Shown here piece after piece: positions 4,697 to 9,196 of a stretch of 11,386 nt of DNA. The stretch spans positions 1 through 11,386 of the forward strand of contig JAISTL010000178.1 of assembly GCA_031272615.1 (NCBI GenBank), written 5' to 3'. The stretch comes from Methylobacteriaceae bacterium. GTDB lineage: Bacteria > Pseudomonadota > Alphaproteobacteria > Rhizobiales > Beijerinckiaceae. Both the position numbers and the translations under genes were made by a program. The notes under the pieces are model-generated. The model did no database searches. It had not been told where the DNA came from and worked only from the letters and a program-made list of their open reading frames with translations. Numbering within the stretch: position 1 is the stretch's first letter; every line of letters starts with the position of its first letter.

Positions 4697-5316
4697 GCCT
4701 TTACTCCGGAAGGTTTCTCACGAACAGCGCCGGTGTGGCCGGGGCGGTCCATCAGGCGGAGCGCCAGGTCCGACCATAATTCCCGGCGCAGGCCGGCGAG
4801 CTCCGCGGCGCTTTTCCATTGGGCGCCGGAGATTTCCGCTCCCGGCAGCGGCCGGTAACCCGGGGCGCAGCGGGCGAGATGAACCAGGCCGAGATGAACC
4901 AGGCCGACGGGGGTTTCGATTTCATTGATGACTCCCCTGTAGTCGAGGGTGATGCGGAGAGGGTCGAAATCAGCCAGTTCCTCGGCCAGTTCCCGCAGAA
5001 TGCAGGCGTGCACGGTTTGCCGCAAATCCGGCCGGGCGTCGTTCTCTTCGATATGCCCGCCGAGCCCGACGGAATAAAGGCCGGTCAGGCGCTTTTCCGA
5101 GCCGTGGCGCTGATAGCAGAGATAGGCGCCGCCGGCATCGCGGACCAGAACATAGGGGATGAGCTGGCGGTGCGAGGTGTCGGTTTCCGCCCCGGCGCGC
5201 TCGAGCCAGCGCACCGGCCCGGGCCCGACGACGGTGAAGAAATCTTCGCTTGTGAAGGTTGTCCGGCTGATCCAGCGGTCCGGAAGCGCATGTGTGTCGA
5301 CGCAGCAGATTCTCAT
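4693..5316 (-). CDS. Nudix-fold hydrolase with a variant Nudix box (MutT-family predicted phosphoesterase type)
   Basis: This 207-residue protein appears to be a Nudix enzyme. Such enzymes cleave nucleoside-diphosphate-linked or related phosphate compounds with divalent metal. Strand QLIPYVLVRDAGGAYLCYQR (51-70) leads to RLTGLYSVGLGGHIE (76-90) and, after a stretch about 6 residues longer than the usual spacing, to the RELAEEL helix (108-114). E109, E112 and E113 match the metal-binding Glu residues of the canonical REUXEE core. The standard Glu 8 residues before that Arg is Gln here (Q100), with E90/E91 nearby. The pattern YSVGLGGHI...REL.EEL recalls the 'predicted phosphoesterase (MutT family)' group; this is from memory. 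The ATG at 5314-5316 overlaps the stop of the CARF-deaminase gene (ATGA), with AGGA 7 bases upstream, so it is probably translated in step with that gene. Its substrate is unknown. A role with the deaminase product (ITP-like nucleotides) or its activator is inference. Confidence 0.85.
   Translation of the reverse strand: MRICCVDTHALPDRWISRTTFTSEDFFTVVGPGPVRWLERAGAETDTSHRQLIPYVLVRDAGGAYLCYQRHGSEKRLTGLYSVGLGGHIEENDARPDLRQTVHACILRELAEELADFDPLRITLDYRGVINEIETPVGLVHLGLVHLARCAPGYRPLPGAEISGAQWKSAAELAGLRRELWSDLALRLMDRPGHTGAVREKPSGVKA
4876..4905 (-). repeat. Perfect 15-bp tandem duplication inside the Nudix gene
   Basis: GAGATGAACCAGGCC occurs twice in direct succession (4876-4890 and 4891-4905). It encodes GLVHL GLVHL (residues 138-147) in frame. 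It may be a recent slippage duplication, or two similar natural beta-strand segments that happen to share codons. Confidence 0.8.
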
Positions 5317-7283
5317 GGCGCTATCCTGTCAAGCCGCTCCACGCACCACTCATGGATGTCCTGTTCGAACCGGCGCAGCAGCCGCAGTTTGGTTTTGGCG
5401 TCGGCGAAGGAAACAATCAGGCTGTTGCGGATCAGCACCAGGCAATCCCTGAGGGAAAGCCCGCCGCACAACCGGGCGGCCTCGTAGAATTCGTTGGAGA
5501 CGAAGGTGCGGGAAATCCCGGGGTTATCGGTGGTCACCGTAACCTTCAACCCGCGTGTCATATAGTCGTTCAGCGGATAGGGGGCGTCCCCCGGCCTGCC
5601 GTAACCGACAATCTGCCGGTTGCTGGACGGGCACAGTTCGATGCCGATATTCCTGTCGATGAACAGCGGGATCAACTCCTCCCTGTCGGCGAGCTTGAGG
5701 CCGTGGCCGATGCGGTCGGCGCTCAAATGGTAGACCGCTTCCCAGATATTGTCGGCGGTTTCGGTTTCACCGGCGTGGATGGTGATATGGATGCACTTTT
5801 TCAGGAACGGCATGAACAGTTCCCGCAACCGGGCGGGAGAATTGGCGGACTCATCCCCGGCCAGGTCGATGCCGGCCAGTTTCTCGGCGAACCGCCGGTT
5901 GCGGTCAATCAGGCCGAGAACGGCGTCGATGCTGTTCCTGATGTCGTCATAACCGCTCTGCCGGCCGATGATGCAAATCAGGCGATACGTGATACCCGAC
6001 CGGTCCATGGCGTCCATGATGGTTTCCACCACCTCGTCGATGCTCAGGCCTTCCCGCGTGTATTTGTAGGGAGAACAGCGGATTTCCACATAGCGGACAT
6101 TGTCCGCCTTGAGGTTGGCGGCATAGATGTCAACGGTTCGGCTGATGGTTTCGCGGCTTTGCAGCAGGGCGCTGCCCTGATAATCCCCCAACGCCTGATA
6201 GGGGTTGATGCCGATGCGGTAATAGTTCTCAGGCTTGACCCTGTCGCCGAAAATGTGGGCGTCGAAAGCCGCCGGCTTATCGGAAAACCCCAGTATTTCC
6301 TTGATTTTTCCGTTGTCCAGCCCGCCTTTCCGGCAGCGGGCGACGTCAATGATCTCCTCCGCCGACAGCACGCCGCCGAGGTGCACGTGAAGGTCCGCCT
6401 TGGGCAGGGCTTTCAGGATTTCGAAATCCCGCTCGCGGGTGGCCGGGTCCTGTCCGATGATGACGCTCCGCAATTTGCGCAGGCTGCGCGGATGCAGGAA
6501 ATAGAGCTTGCGGAAAATGTCCCGCTCGCCGTCGCGGTTGCGGATGCCGGTGTAGAAATTGTCATAAAGCTGGGCTGACTGTTGTTCCCGTTGGCGGATT
6601 TCCCGTTCGAGCCCGCCGTCCTCCGCGATGACGCCGCTCAGCGAAGGGTCAAAGGGAAATGCCGCGGCGGTGATTTCCCGTTCTCCCGTCGCTACCAGGA
6701 AGCTTTCCGGAATGTCCTTGTGCACGCATACCGGCAGAAAATACCGCGCGTAGGCTCCCGGGGGGCCCGTCAGGTCGTCTTTGCGGAATTCCGGCGGCGG
6801 GTTGATGTCCATGATGTGGAACATCGCCGAGCAGCCGAACAGCATACCCGCCTCGAACATGTCGACGCTCATGGTTTTCCTGCCGCCGGTCAGCGACAGA
6901 TAAAGCTTGCCGTCCGGCCCGGTGAGTCCGGAGGCGTTCAGCACAATCCGGAACAGGAAGGAGCGGAAGGTGCGGATTTTCTCCCCGGTGTTCAAATCGT
7001 CAACGCCTTTGCAGGCGAAGGTTTTCACCGGAACGGCAAACCGTTTGCACCACTGCTCCAGCTCGGGAGGGGAGGGCTCTCCGGTTTTCCCGCCGGGCCT
7101 TTCGGTGGTGATGACCCAAAACTCGTCAACCGGCGTCACGTCACAGGTCCGCCGCAGCTCATCGACCGTCGGGTTGCCGGTGAAGAAATCGTAGACCGCC
7201 GGGTTGGTCCAGCCGACCAGTTCCGGCAGAACCTGCCAGCTGGCGCCGAGGGTGGTGACGAGAATCGTCTTGGTGCTGCGCAT
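5313..7283 (-). CDS. CARF (Cas_NE0113-type) - adenosine deaminase fusion, Cad1-like
   Basis: This 656-residue cytosolic protein joins a nucleotide-sensing domain to a deaminase. Residues 1-190 resemble CRISPR-associated NE0113-type CARF proteins: a first Rossmann strand with glycine loop, KTILVTTLGASWQVLPEL (5-22), and the ligand-loop motif LYLSLTGGRKTMS (127-139). A charged helical linker spans about 200-290. The adenosine/AMP deaminase TIM-barrel follows, with ADLHVHLGG (296-304; zinc ligands H299, H301), TIHAGETE (501-508; zinc ligand H503, catalytic E506), RIGHGL (524-529; H527), CPSSN (551-555) and TTDNP (584-588; zinc ligand D586). Spacing E506-H527 equals that in classical deaminases. 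The second Asp of the usual TDDP is Asn587. Known Cad1 proteins are type III CRISPR effectors that bind cyclic oligoadenylates and deaminate ATP to ITP; that function here is inferred. The ATG at 7281-7283 has GGAG 6 bases upstream. No cas genes or CRISPR repeats are in the window. Confidence 0.93.
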   Translation of the reverse strand: MRSTKTILVTTLGASWQVLPELVGWTNPAVYDFFTGNPTVDELRRTCDVTPVDEFWVITTERPGGKTGEPSPPELEQWCKRFAVPVKTFACKGVDDLNTGEKIRTFRSFLFRIVLNASGLTGPDGKLYLSLTGGRKTMSVDMFEAGMLFGCSAMFHIMDINPPPEFRKDDLTGPPGAYARYFLPVCVHKDIPESFLVATGEREITAAAFPFDPSLSGVIAEDGGLEREIRQREQQSAQLYDNFYTGIRNRDGERDIFRKLYFLHPRSLRKLRSVIIGQDPATRERDFEILKALPKADLHVHLGGVLSAEEIIDVARCRKGGLDNGKIKEILGFSDKPAAFDAHIFGDRVKPENYYRIGINPYQALGDYQGSALLQSRETISRTVDIYAANLKADNVRYVEIRCSPYKYTREGLSIDEVVETIMDAMDRSGITYRLICIIGRQSGYDDIRNSIDAVLGLIDRNRRFAEKLAGIDLAGDESANSPARLRELFMPFLKKCIHITIHAGETETADNIWEAVYHLSADRIGHGLKLADREELIPLFIDRNIGIELCPSSNRQIVGYGRPGDAPYPLNDYMTRGLKVTVTTDNPGISRTFVSNEFYEAARLCGGLSLRDCLVLIRNSLIVSFADAKTKLRLLRRFEQDIHEWCVERLDRIAP

Positions 7284-7835
7284 CGGCTGCTCCGCGGTGA
7301 ATGGTACAATTTGCGATTATGTCAGAGCCGCGCCGGTTTGTCCCGTGTTTTTTGCGGGGGTCGCACGGGGCGCCGGGAACCTGAAAACCGGTGACATCGG
7401 CCGTCATGGACCTTCCCGCGCCGGGTCAAACACCGAAAGATATGATTGACAGCGCCCGGATACCGGAGGCACTCCCCGTGCGCGTCAACGGGCAGCCTAC
7501 AATCCGCTGACGGGGAACCTCTGGATTGTGGTGGTTTTGACGGTTGGGTTGTCGCCGGTCACCGTCATGCGGCTGCGGCATCTCGACAAACCGGAAGGGT
7601 AGCGCAAGGGGACGCTCCTCGCGCCCGATGACCGCGGTTGGGGCGGCAACCGTTCGCTCATATCTCGTGTTCGACCCCCGCACCACGAAGACTATAGTGC
7701 CGGAGATTGACGGCAACGAAGCCCGCCACGCCAGGCGTATCGGCCGGTTTGGCAGGGGGCACCCACAAGCGGCGCCGGCGCCGTTCCGGCGTTTCGCAGG
7801 AAATCCGACAGGTCCGCCGCAGCAACCGCCGGTCC
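7284..7835. other. 552-base gap upstream of the CARF-deaminase gene
   Basis: I find no convincing gene here. Opposite-strand open frames overlap throughout and none has a good ribosome site. The least poor plus-strand frame runs from an ATG at 7628 to 7855 (75 residues, no Shine-Dalgarno). Another plus-strand frame ending at 7603 reads a hydrophobic stretch LWIVVVLTVGLSPVTVMRLR with no plausible start codon, and could be a gene remnant. The part nearest 7283 holds the candidate promoter described separately. No CRISPR-like spaced repeats are present. Confidence 0.6.
7316..7344 (-). promoter_or_regulatory. Candidate promoter of the CARF-deaminase operon
   Basis: On the minus strand, GGGACA (7339-7344; 4 of 6 to TTGACA) and CATAAT (7316-7321; 5 of 6 to TATAAT) are separated by exactly 17 bases. 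Transcription would start near 7309, leaving a short leader of about 26 bases with the GGAG ribosome site. The short leader and absence of another promoter-like site close by support it. It is a consensus match only. Confidence 0.4.
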
Positions 7836-7949
7836 TCAGGTTTCCTCATAATTGACACTGAGGAGCAGATAGGCGATCAGCATGATCACGCCTATCGCGG
7901 GTTTGCCCATCAGCGTCGCCAGCAAGGCGCCTACCACCAGAACCGGCAT
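7836..7949 (-). CDS. 37-residue hydrophobic membrane peptide
   Basis: A small frame reads MPVLVVGALLATLMGKPAIG (1-20) then VIMLIAYLLLSVNYEET (21-37). It has one long or two short membrane segments (about 2-14 and 18-32) broken by GKPAIG, and an acidic C-terminus. The ATG at 7947-7949 has AGGAG 6 bases upstream. An adjacent ATG at 7950-7952 would add one Met with only 3 bases of spacing, and a farther ATG at 7968-7970 would place the AGGAG inside the gene. It ends with TGA at 7836-7838. Coding is supported by the ideal ribosome site and coherent hydrophobic pattern. It resembles in style the small single-helix membrane proteins often found near stress loci, but I do not recognise a family. It is on the same strand as the CARF-deaminase gene, 552 bases upstream, and probably separate from it. 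Confidence 0.6.
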   Translation of the reverse strand: MPVLVVGALLATLMGKPAIGVIMLIAYLLLSVNYEET

Positions 7950-8140
7950 CATGCACTCCTGTAAGTTCATGTCTCGCATCCCGCCTGAAACCGGTTAATG
8001 TCGGTGTCGTCGTTGAGTTCCGGCGGATGAAGACCCGGGCCGCGAAGTATCCGTTATCCTATTCACACTCTTGAATTCACGCACGTTAATCTGCGATTTC
8101 TTTCCGGCCGGGCCGGTCAGCGCCGCAGGCCGCTGCTCAT

Positions 8141-8175
8141 CGGTTTAAAAGGGGCCCAACCCCCTGATAAAACCG
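8141..8175. repeat. Interrupted inverted repeat in the intergenic region
   Basis: Outer arms CGGTTT (8141-8146) and AAACCG (8170-8175) enclose inner AGGGG (8150-8154) and CCCCT (8161-8165). Together they can fold as a two-part hairpin of 11 pairs with a small internal loop. No T-tract follows in either direction. It may be RNA structure or a remnant element. Confidence 0.4.
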
Positions 8176-8242
8176 GGATTCTTCCGAAGACGAACCCACG
8201 CGGCACGTTTATGTTTAACGCAATCTGAATGGAAGATAAATG

Positions 8243-8264
8243 ACCAAATTCCTTAAATTTTGGT
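8243..8264. promoter_or_regulatory. Operator-like dyad ACCAAA-N10-TTTGGT
   Basis: Six-base arms with perfect twofold symmetry flank an AT-rich 10-base centre, giving a 22-base site that stands out from the GC-rich surroundings. The size and symmetry suit a homodimeric repressor or activator. The target gene is unclear: the 37-residue peptide gene starts about 290 bases downstream on the minus strand. Confidence 0.35.
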
Positions 8265-8460
8265 AAGCCTTCGTGACGGGATGGGGCGAAAGGCAACGGT
8301 TTGCGGCCGCGGCTGGTAGGTAATGCTCCCTAAAATAACTTTTTCGTTATGGTTGACGCCGTCCTTCGGTTCGCGTCATTTTCAGGAGAGGTCACGTTTC
8401 GGGCGTGCGGCGACTCGCAATCTTGCGGGAGTTTTACCGGGATTTAATTAGATGGGTCAA

Positions 8461-8474
8461 GACTCCGCGGAGTC
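8461..8474. repeat. 14-bp perfect palindrome GACTCCGCGGAGTC
   Basis: This perfect palindrome lies 35 bases after the stop codon of the 146-residue gene at 8509-8949. As RNA it could form a 5-bp hairpin with a CGCG loop at the transcript end. No T-run follows on the minus strand, so it is at best a weak or Rho-assisted terminator or a 3'-end stabiliser. Confidence 0.4.
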
Positions 8475-8508
8475 CCGCCCCATACGGTTTTCGTGCCCGG
8501 TTCCGGCA

Positions 8509-8949
8509 TCACTCCTCTTTATCCGGCGTGCGGTTCTTCTGGTGCTTCTCATCCGCTTTGACCGTCCGCAGGCGGACGGCAAGGCCCGGCGGCTCCCGGT
8601 CGGCGAAGCGGGACGTGAACGGCAGCAGGGCGTATCCGTTCTGATCGGGCGCCAAAATCCGGCTTTCCCGTCTCACCATGAACCGGTCCCTGGGCAGCCA
8701 TATCACCTGTCCGGCGGAATGCGCCGCTGTGACCGCGGCCAGCGTGTCGGCGCGTCCGGGGTGTTTGCGGATGGGAACAAGCGGCCTGTCGGCGCCGAAA
8801 TAGTGCGTCACCCGGTGCGGAACCGGGATGACCGGGCCGTCGGGGTATACTCTCGGCCGGTTGTCTTCCATGATATCGCCGTTGAAGGTCGTCACATTGT
8901 AAATGCGGTTTCTGAGAAACTCAACGGCGTCGGAAAGCGTCATCGTCAT
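8509..8949 (-). CDS. Hypothetical protein, 146 residues, family not recognised
   Basis: I do not recognise this protein. It has no signal peptide or membrane helix and looks soluble. The N-terminus (TLSDAVEFLRNRIYNVTTFN at 4-23) may be helical. The middle is rich in Pro, Arg and His (YPDGPVIPVPHRVTHYFGAD at 35-54), and the tail is strongly charged (KADEKHQKNRTPDKEE). Third codon positions are mostly G or C as in the neighbouring genes, which supports real coding. A longer open frame on the opposite strand runs through the tRNA gene and is an artefact. The ATG at 8947-8949 has GGAG about 11 bases upstream, a long spacing; ATG at 8941-8943 is an alternative. It lies downstream of the tRNA-Ser gene on the same strand, separated by 247 bases. 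Confidence 0.6.
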   Translation of the reverse strand: MTMTLSDAVEFLRNRIYNVTTFNGDIMEDNRPRVYPDGPVIPVPHRVTHYFGADRPLVPIRKHPGRADTLAAVTAAHSAGQVIWLPRDRFMVRRESRILAPDQNGYALLPFTSRFADREPPGLAVRLRTVKADEKHQKNRTPDKEE

Positions 8950-9196
8950 GGCAGGATGGTCTCCATCTGCTGCGCGGGCGCACGTCGCTGCCGAAGAGCG
9001 GTTTCATGGGAAGCTCCGGAGGTTCGGGTGCTCCGCCGGGGGGAGGGTACGCCAAGACCGCAGCAAAAACAACGGAAATCAATAAATTGCTTGCAAGGAA
9101 CTCTGAAACCCGATGGGAAATGCTTGTTGAATCGTACCGATGGACGGACCGACTCCACAAGAATGGATGACTGCGTGGCTGCTGTTACAAGACAAT

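Follow-up and report, generated by a model that had tools for sequence, protein, structure and literature searches.

What does a Cad1-type protein, a CARF sensor fused to an adenosine deaminase and known as a type III CRISPR effector, do among core genes with no CRISPR locus beside it? We addressed this question for the cad1 gene of Methylobacteriaceae bacterium (assembly GCA_031272615.1, contig JAISTL010000178.1), using a window of 11,386 nucleotides that is one complete contig (C38) of a draft metagenome-assembled genome (MAG; 2.60 Mb in 344 contigs; completeness 78%, contamination 2.6%). Because the window is an entire contig of a fragmented MAG, the absence of CRISPR genes from these 11 kb is uninformative about the genome. 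A first-pass annotation had put forward a Cad1 without CRISPR; type III-A genes on two other contigs of the same draft genome (C231 and C211) contradict that hint. Cad1 is highly likely to be a cyclic oligoadenylate-driven effector that acts in trans, with the genome's own type III-A system as its driver.

Cad1 fold and key residues

To characterise the protein, we combined profile searches with structure prediction. The PADLOC profile PDLC01908 (CARF5--CARF_ADA) matched residues 5-649 at 571 bits, and Pfam A_deaminase matched residues 370-638 (E 2e-50). The NE0113-type reading of the CARF motif in the first-pass annotation was correct, with Pfam alone insufficient as proof (Cas_NE0113, 20.8 bits, below the 23-bit cut-off). 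An AlphaFold2 model built on an alignment of 14 relatives reached a mean predicted local distance difference test score (pLDDT) of 87.2. Its top 30 matches in the PDB were all Cad1/CAAD chains over about the full length (E 1.3e-36 to 3.7e-29; template modelling score by query length, 0.47-0.69); partial Cad1 chains took ranks 31-35, followed at rank 36 by the first ordinary deaminase. The cA4-bound (cyclic tetra-adenylate) structures 9mmw and 9ofe matched best, and 9c67 and other forms with differently placed domains scored lowest. Since the top matches are Cad1/CAAD chains over about the full length, the objection that residues 1-190 might lack a CARF fold fails, and the predicted structure contains one. 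Profile and predicted fold together place a CARF domain at the N-terminus and an adenosine-deaminase fold at the C-terminus, as in Cad1/CAAD, and by both the gene is an intact member of this family, as first annotated.

The protein was compared with PDB entries 9c67, 8z3k and 9ebt, which we take to be BabCad1, LngCAAD and TaqCad1, respectively. It shares with them the domain order, the full-length fold, the CARF lysine and the HxHLGG and TDN active-site motifs, and likewise comes from a genome with type III-A genes; W514 lies at the position of TaqCad1 W472, counted by hand. Identity was 31-34% to pieces of the solved chains and 37-40% to the relatives L038-L042. The difference is that it is encoded away from a CRISPR locus. 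At 656 aa, it also falls just outside the 550-650 aa filter given for a survey of 88 homologues (PMC11645235).

Residues H299, H301, G303, H503, E506, H527, D586, N587 and K136 were invariant with pieces of the three solved chains. K136, a predicted contact of cyclic oligoadenylate, was also invariant among the 14 relatives and aligned with TaqCad1 K106, which is reported to be required for cA4 binding and cleavage (PMC12669630). G303 and N587 occupy the positions of two aspartates of ordinary adenosine deaminase, and TaqCad1 is described with the matching two changes, Gly264 and Asn549 (PMC12669630). Among the 14 relatives, G303 was invariant; at the N587 column an Asp is retained in L039 and L041, so that the Asn change is common, not universal.

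These data bear on the idea that the gene encodes an ordinary adenosine deaminase of purine salvage whose N-terminal domain is mere decoration. The A_deaminase match fits this idea, but the replacement of both aspartates by Gly and Asn, an NCBIfam TIGR01430 score of 187 bits (below the 216.55 cut-off) and the full-length structural match to Cad1 reduce it to a negligible probability. Across the phylum, 43 of 398 genomes passed E 1e-40 with the CARF_ADA profile; the places listed other than our own matched only its C-terminal part, from profile position 187, and are ordinary deaminases, a further point against this idea.

Type III-A CRISPR genes in the same draft genome

Searching the genome for the Cas10 palm gave one match, on contig C231 (5.2e-30, 105 bits), and a search for RAMP proteins led to C231 and C211. 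The gene order is csx16, a Can2-like gene, cas10, csm2 and csm3 on C231, which ends 18 bases past csm3, and the C-terminal part of csm4, csm5, cas6, cas2, cas1 and cas2 on C211; the ends of the cas contigs lie at cas2 and csm4 (Table 1). The cyclase gene is named Cas10a by PADLOC. Thus, all members of the type III-A set (cas10 with GGDD, csm2, csm3, csm4 and csm5) were found, csm4 in part, and we infer that C231 and C211 meet within that gene. Since cas10 with HD and GGDD motifs and csm genes are present, the draft genome is predicted to hold machinery for cyclic oligoadenylate synthesis. With the 105-bit Cas10 match on C231, a stand-alone Cad1 in a CRISPR-free genome was rejected.

These type III-A genes favour one option raised by the first-pass annotation, a distant type III system, and explain the suspicion of an orphan effector. 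More than 70% of 88 cad1 homologues are reported from genomes with type III systems (PMC11645235), and effector-less type III loci have been proposed to act on effectors from other places in the genome (PMC11229360). Another suggestion of that annotation was a response to a non-CRISPR nucleotide cyclase; a CD-NTase of a cyclic-oligonucleotide-based antiphage signalling system (CBASS) would be one example, and CARF-like sensors outside CRISPR are conceivable. A search for SMODS, the sole synthase family searched, gave no match at E values up to 1 in this 78%-complete genome, and Cas10 is present in it, which makes such a synthase a very improbable driver.

To assess whether cad1 and the CRISPR genes belong together, we compared tetranucleotide profiles and gene distribution. 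C38 and C231 correlated at r 0.86, and 12 foreign loci reached at most r 0.65 with either. Among 149 genomes of the same family, cad1 was found in one (E 1e-30), the NUDIX gene that follows it in one (E 1e-10) and Cas10 in two (E 1e-12), and all three occurred in the Methylobacteriaceae bacterium genome.

Table 1. Features of the window (C38) and of the two contigs carrying type III-A genes.
Feature	Contig	Position	Strand	Details
cad1/CAAD-type CARF-adenosine deaminase	C38	5313..7283	-	656 aa (stop included); ATG start; no internal stop
CARF sensor domain	C38	6708..7283	-	about residues 1-192; approximate boundary based on predicted secondary structure
CARF motif LSLTGGRKTMS	C38	6867..6899	-	residues 129-139; includes K136
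ATP-deaminase domain (predicted)	C38	5316..6419	-	about residues 289-656; H299/H301, G303, H503/E506, H527, D586/N587
NUDIX hydrolase	C38	4693..5316	-	207 aa; Pfam NUDIX 2.5e-5; next gene after cad1
rluD-type pseudouridine synthase	C38	3650..4696	-	NCBIfam TIGR00005 285 bits, above cut-off; core gene; start codon uncertain
rpoH heat-shock sigma factor	C38	2596..3492	-	TIGR02392 5.2e-112, above cut-off; core-gene flank
tRNA-Ser(CGA)	C38	9197..9286	-	Rfam match; flank upstream of cad1
csx16	C231			1.4e-40
Can2/Card1-like CARF-PD-(D/E)XK nuclease	C231			6.1e-96
cas10, subtype III-A	C231			1.1e-98 (first 680 residues); HD and GGDD motifs in translation
csm2	C231			1.9e-18
csm3	C231			4.7e-68
csm4, C-terminal part at contig end	C211			2.2e-43; profile positions 152-293
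csm5	C211			7.3e-18
cas6	C211			8.6e-92
cas1	C211			1.7e-76
two different cas2-like genes flanking cas1	C211	2-331, 1375-1650	-	1.7e-13 (before cas1 in the gene order) and 6.8e-12 (after cas1)

The NUDIX partner and the proposed pathway

The start of the NUDIX gene overlaps the stop of cad1 by 4 nt (ATGA), and the two genes are probably translationally coupled. The NUDIX protein scored 24.7 bits against a Pfam cut-off of 21.1, and its model (pLDDT 91.5) matched best to PDB entry 3e57, a putative Nudix hydrolase (E 3.1e-15); a profile of nine partner NUDIX proteins reached the same entry at 3.7e-36. The partner thus shares its fold with Tm1382 (3e57), which is itself listed as an uncharacterised protein. 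The Nudix catalytic RE..EE residues (R108, E109, E112 and E113) were invariant in all nine partner proteins, along with 30 further columns.

To learn how often the pair recurs, we examined the loci of cad1 relatives. A scan of genome contigs gave at least 80 loci, from which 14 formed the sample: 13 with a match reaching the CARF part, and L043, which matched from residue 250 and ranked among them. The 66 loci dropped all matched only from residue 251 on. Thirteen sampled loci (L093 left out) and the window protein made up the alignment of relatives used above, and all 14 of its members matched PDLC01908 at 1e-30 or better. Neighbours in the 14 loci were sought by phmmer with 14 proteins of our genome against open reading frames (ORFs) of at least 60 aa, and ORFs of seven loci were given to PADLOC (L039, 8; L052, 5; L044 and L046, 2 each; L041, L047 and L040, 1 each).

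The results revealed a NUDIX homologue (phmmer 2.7e-19 or better) directly 3' of cad1 in 8 of the 14 sampled loci, from MAGs of Deferribacteraceae (L038), Planctomycetota (L039), Prolixibacteraceae (L040), Gammaproteobacteria (L041), Desulfocapsa (L043), Deltaproteobacteria (L045), Limisphaerales (L047) and Desulfomicrobiaceae (L052). The 4-base overlap recurred in L041, L043, L047 and L052. No NUDIX match by phmmer followed cad1 in L042, L046, L048 or L093, and L044 and L050 stop at or inside cad1, so that their downstream gene cannot be read. The first-pass annotation had identified Cad1 correctly and overlooked this recurrent partner. The pairing spans several bacterial phyla, and the NUDIX step is thus a recurring element of the pathway that is worth testing. 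By eye, the Cad1 proteins of L043 and L045 are marked by a shortened linker and a CARF motif that diverges (SGGRKT); the NUDIX partners of the two also look alike, which suggests a co-evolving Cad1 and NUDIX branch. L093 (3-2543) carries a cad1-like frame in which the deaminase parts are separated by an in-frame insertion of about 200 residues; by eye, the insert looks like a small transposase.

Type III genes lay near cad1 in L038, L040, L041, L042, L043, L045, L047, L048 and L050. L039 has a Csx1-type gene directly before cad1, at the contig end; L093 gave only a weak can2-like match (phmmer). No CRISPR gene was found in L044, L046 or L052, either by phmmer or among the 2, 2 and 5 ORFs that PADLOC covered. 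In 12 of the 14 genomes with a cad1 relative, a Cas10 palm match exceeded the Pfam cut-off, with E values no worse than 1.1e-14. In the other two, those of L039 and L093, all matches stayed below the threshold and are probably GGDEF proteins. In the Desulfomicrobiaceae MAG, the cad1-NUDIX pair of L052 (5241-7705 of a 14.4-kb contig) lies near EAL and chemotaxis genes, and Cas10 was located on another contig. With no CRISPR gene found near it, L052 may be a second cad1-NUDIX pair remote from cas genes.

The probable signal was approached through the effectors of the CRISPR locus itself. Csx16 is described as a cA4-specific ring nuclease (PMC12409355), Can2 as cA4-activated and csx16 as adjoining can2 (PMC7969007). 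Since our genome has csx16 and a Can2-like gene, both cA4 users in the literature, cA4 is by analogy most likely the signal for Cad1. Cad1 homologues are reported to be activated by cA4 and by cyclic hexa-adenylate (cA6) and to convert ATP to inosine triphosphate (ITP) (PMC11645235), with TaqCad1 and LngCAAD preferring cA4 and BabCad1 cA6 (PMC12669630). A hexameric form counts among the traits of the family. Like known type III loci with Can2 and Csx16, this one has csx16 and the Can2-like gene directly before cas10, but a second effector, Cad1-Nudix, is encoded elsewhere in the genome.

We propose the following pathway, in which the ligand, the substrate, the NUDIX step and the physiological link between the cad1 and CRISPR loci are put forward as inferences. 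When the CRISPR RNA (crRNA) of the Csm complex meets foreign RNA, Cas10 would synthesise cyclic oligoadenylate, with cA4 the most likely product. Cad1 would bind it through its paired CARF domains, and the deaminase domain would convert ATP to ITP, which the NUDIX hydrolase would most likely cut to inosine monophosphate (IMP) and pyrophosphate. The ATP pool would drain, growth would stop and the phage would be blocked. Meanwhile, the Can2-like nuclease of the CRISPR locus would answer the same signal, and Csx16, possibly together with Cad1's own CARF domain, would switch it off.

A role of the NUDIX step in deepening ATP depletion is likely. Li et al. (cited in PMC12715507) reportedly found that CAAD turns ATP into ITP and Nudix turns ITP into IMP, with growth arrest. 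In that pathway and in our window cad1 is followed by the NUDIX gene; here the pair lies among core genes and not in a CRISPR operon. A literature search for Nudix proteins with type III CRISPR deaminases found nothing on the subject. NUDIX enzymes are classic house-cleaning hydrolases, and it is possible, if less probable, that Cad1 acts in trans as proposed while the NUDIX protein clears ITP and dITP, protects the host and permits recovery. Conserved gene order and overlap would fit such an effector-guard pair equally, and Cad1 homologues without a downstream NUDIX match exist (the four loci named above). However, removal of ITP would be expected to pull the conversion of ATP to ITP forward rather than reverse it, and the Nudix step of Li et al. 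is reported to end in IMP and growth arrest. This alternative differs from the proposed pathway in the last step only, and the odds of the two overlap.

Several points weigh against an ATP-depleting Cad1-NUDIX pair driven in trans. Pfam NUDIX matched 5 of the 9 partner proteins at E 0.01, and the substrate specificity of a NUDIX protein is not readable from its sequence. BabCad1 prefers cA6, so that cA6 is a possible ligand here in place of cA4. The usual context of cad1, though no part of the family's definition, is in or beside a type III locus, and here the two lie on separate contigs. About 150 csm4 codons between C231 and C211 are unseen. The genome search suggested by the first-pass annotation returned cas10 and csm genes but no CRISPR array among the repeat families shown for the two cas contigs, C231 and C211; array searches covered these two and the window. 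At E 1, the Cas10 palm model also matched 8 of the 14 control genomes, 5 of them above its cut-off, and an E. coli control was matched above the cut-off, not at 1e-12. The short contig C211 correlated at only r 0.68 with C38 (0.68-0.69 with C38 and C231). Because the genome is a MAG, binning and composition are the grounds for assigning its contigs to one cell. The other Cas10-bearing genome of the family (G035) is without cad1. The main uncertainties concern the effect of the NUDIX step, either further loss of ATP or protection of the host, and the presence of both loci in one cell.

Genomic position, origin and neighbouring features

The kind of effector is already known; the uncommon part is the position of its gene among core genes. 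As first annotated, cad1 opens a same-strand array that runs into core genes. Core genes flank it on either side, and the two contig ends are 4.1 kb and 5.3 kb away, so it is not part of the CRISPR operon. No Cas-type match was obtained for the window proteins searched (7 with Pfam, 5 with NCBIfam and 3 with PADLOC), apart from those of the Cad1 protein itself to CARF, Csx1, Csx14 and NE0113-type models. No CRISPR-like array appeared in the 20 largest of 43 direct-repeat families of the window, in agreement with the initial description.

In 13 of 19 rpoH loci of relatives, rluD adjoins rpoH. Regions from 10 relatives, 7 of them with rluD beside rpoH, contained neither cad1 nor the NUDIX gene (E 1e-6), and 4 of the 10 had a tRNA-Glu just upstream of rluD. 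Across the class, cad1 was present in 1 of 385 genomes (E 1e-60). This rarity in the family and class indicates that the pair was most likely gained by transfer. The G+C content at third codon positions (GC3; cad1 0.80, NUDIX 0.75, rluD 0.83, rpoH 0.80) resembles that of the neighbouring core genes and thus bears no mark of recent acquisition.

We also examined possible carriers. A viral origin was rejected: a protein-only scan of viral contigs gave no relative, and an alignment scan gave five viral loci, all covering the deaminase part only (residue 288 onward). Plasmid carriage was likewise rejected, none of 94 matching plasmid records covering 80% of the query; the 20 matches shown began only from residue 252 on. 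Island insertion at tRNA-Ser was discarded, no tRNA-end repeat standing out in the 20 repeat families shown.

The first-pass annotation also raised a stand-alone enzyme, and the position invites a further explanation of this kind, that Cad1 is a stand-alone or domesticated stress enzyme, regulated with rluD and rpoH and no longer tied to cyclic oligoadenylate. Its location, flanked by tRNA-Ser and by rluD-rpoH and sharing the strand of rluD-rpoH, is consistent with this, as are the lack of cas genes found in the contig and a GC3 equal to that of rpoH with no foreign mark. Against it stand the retained CARF motif and lysine, the type III-A genes with a cyclase motif in the same genome and the fact that most homologues examined adjoin type III genes, and we regard domestication as improbable.

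For the preferred reading of Cad1 as an effector driven in trans, a more specific form can be considered, in which the pair became uncoupled from its CRISPR operon and settled permanently among core genes, at a site upstream of rluD-rpoH. We hold this form to be doubtful. If it were true, one cA4 signal would act through two effectors encoded apart, Can2 at the CRISPR locus and ATP depletion in trans; the ATP-depletion arm might come under heat-shock or ribosome-maintenance transcription; and the pair would be a genome-level shared effector usable by any type III locus transferred in. The case bears on the idea that type III loci drive effectors encoded elsewhere, and for "orphan" CARF effectors the whole genome should be checked before a CRISPR-free role is proposed.

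Among the remaining features of the window, the tRNA was the single Rfam match at gathering score, and ribosomal protein genes rplU and rpmA were named by eye. The stretch of about 1.9 kb upstream of cad1 (7300-9190) contains two ORFs that were checked and had no Pfam match. On the cad1 strand, positions 7344-7316 hold a promoter-like site; 3 such sites were found where 0.6 would be expected. On C231, a candidate defence pair, HEC-01 (12863-14640, minus strand; HEC-01A 5.5e-125, HEC-01B 2e-43), lies about 1.8 kb from csx16. It is bracketed by identical 60-base direct copies (12725-12784 and 14825-14884; 2100 bases apart), which are perhaps traces of insertion.

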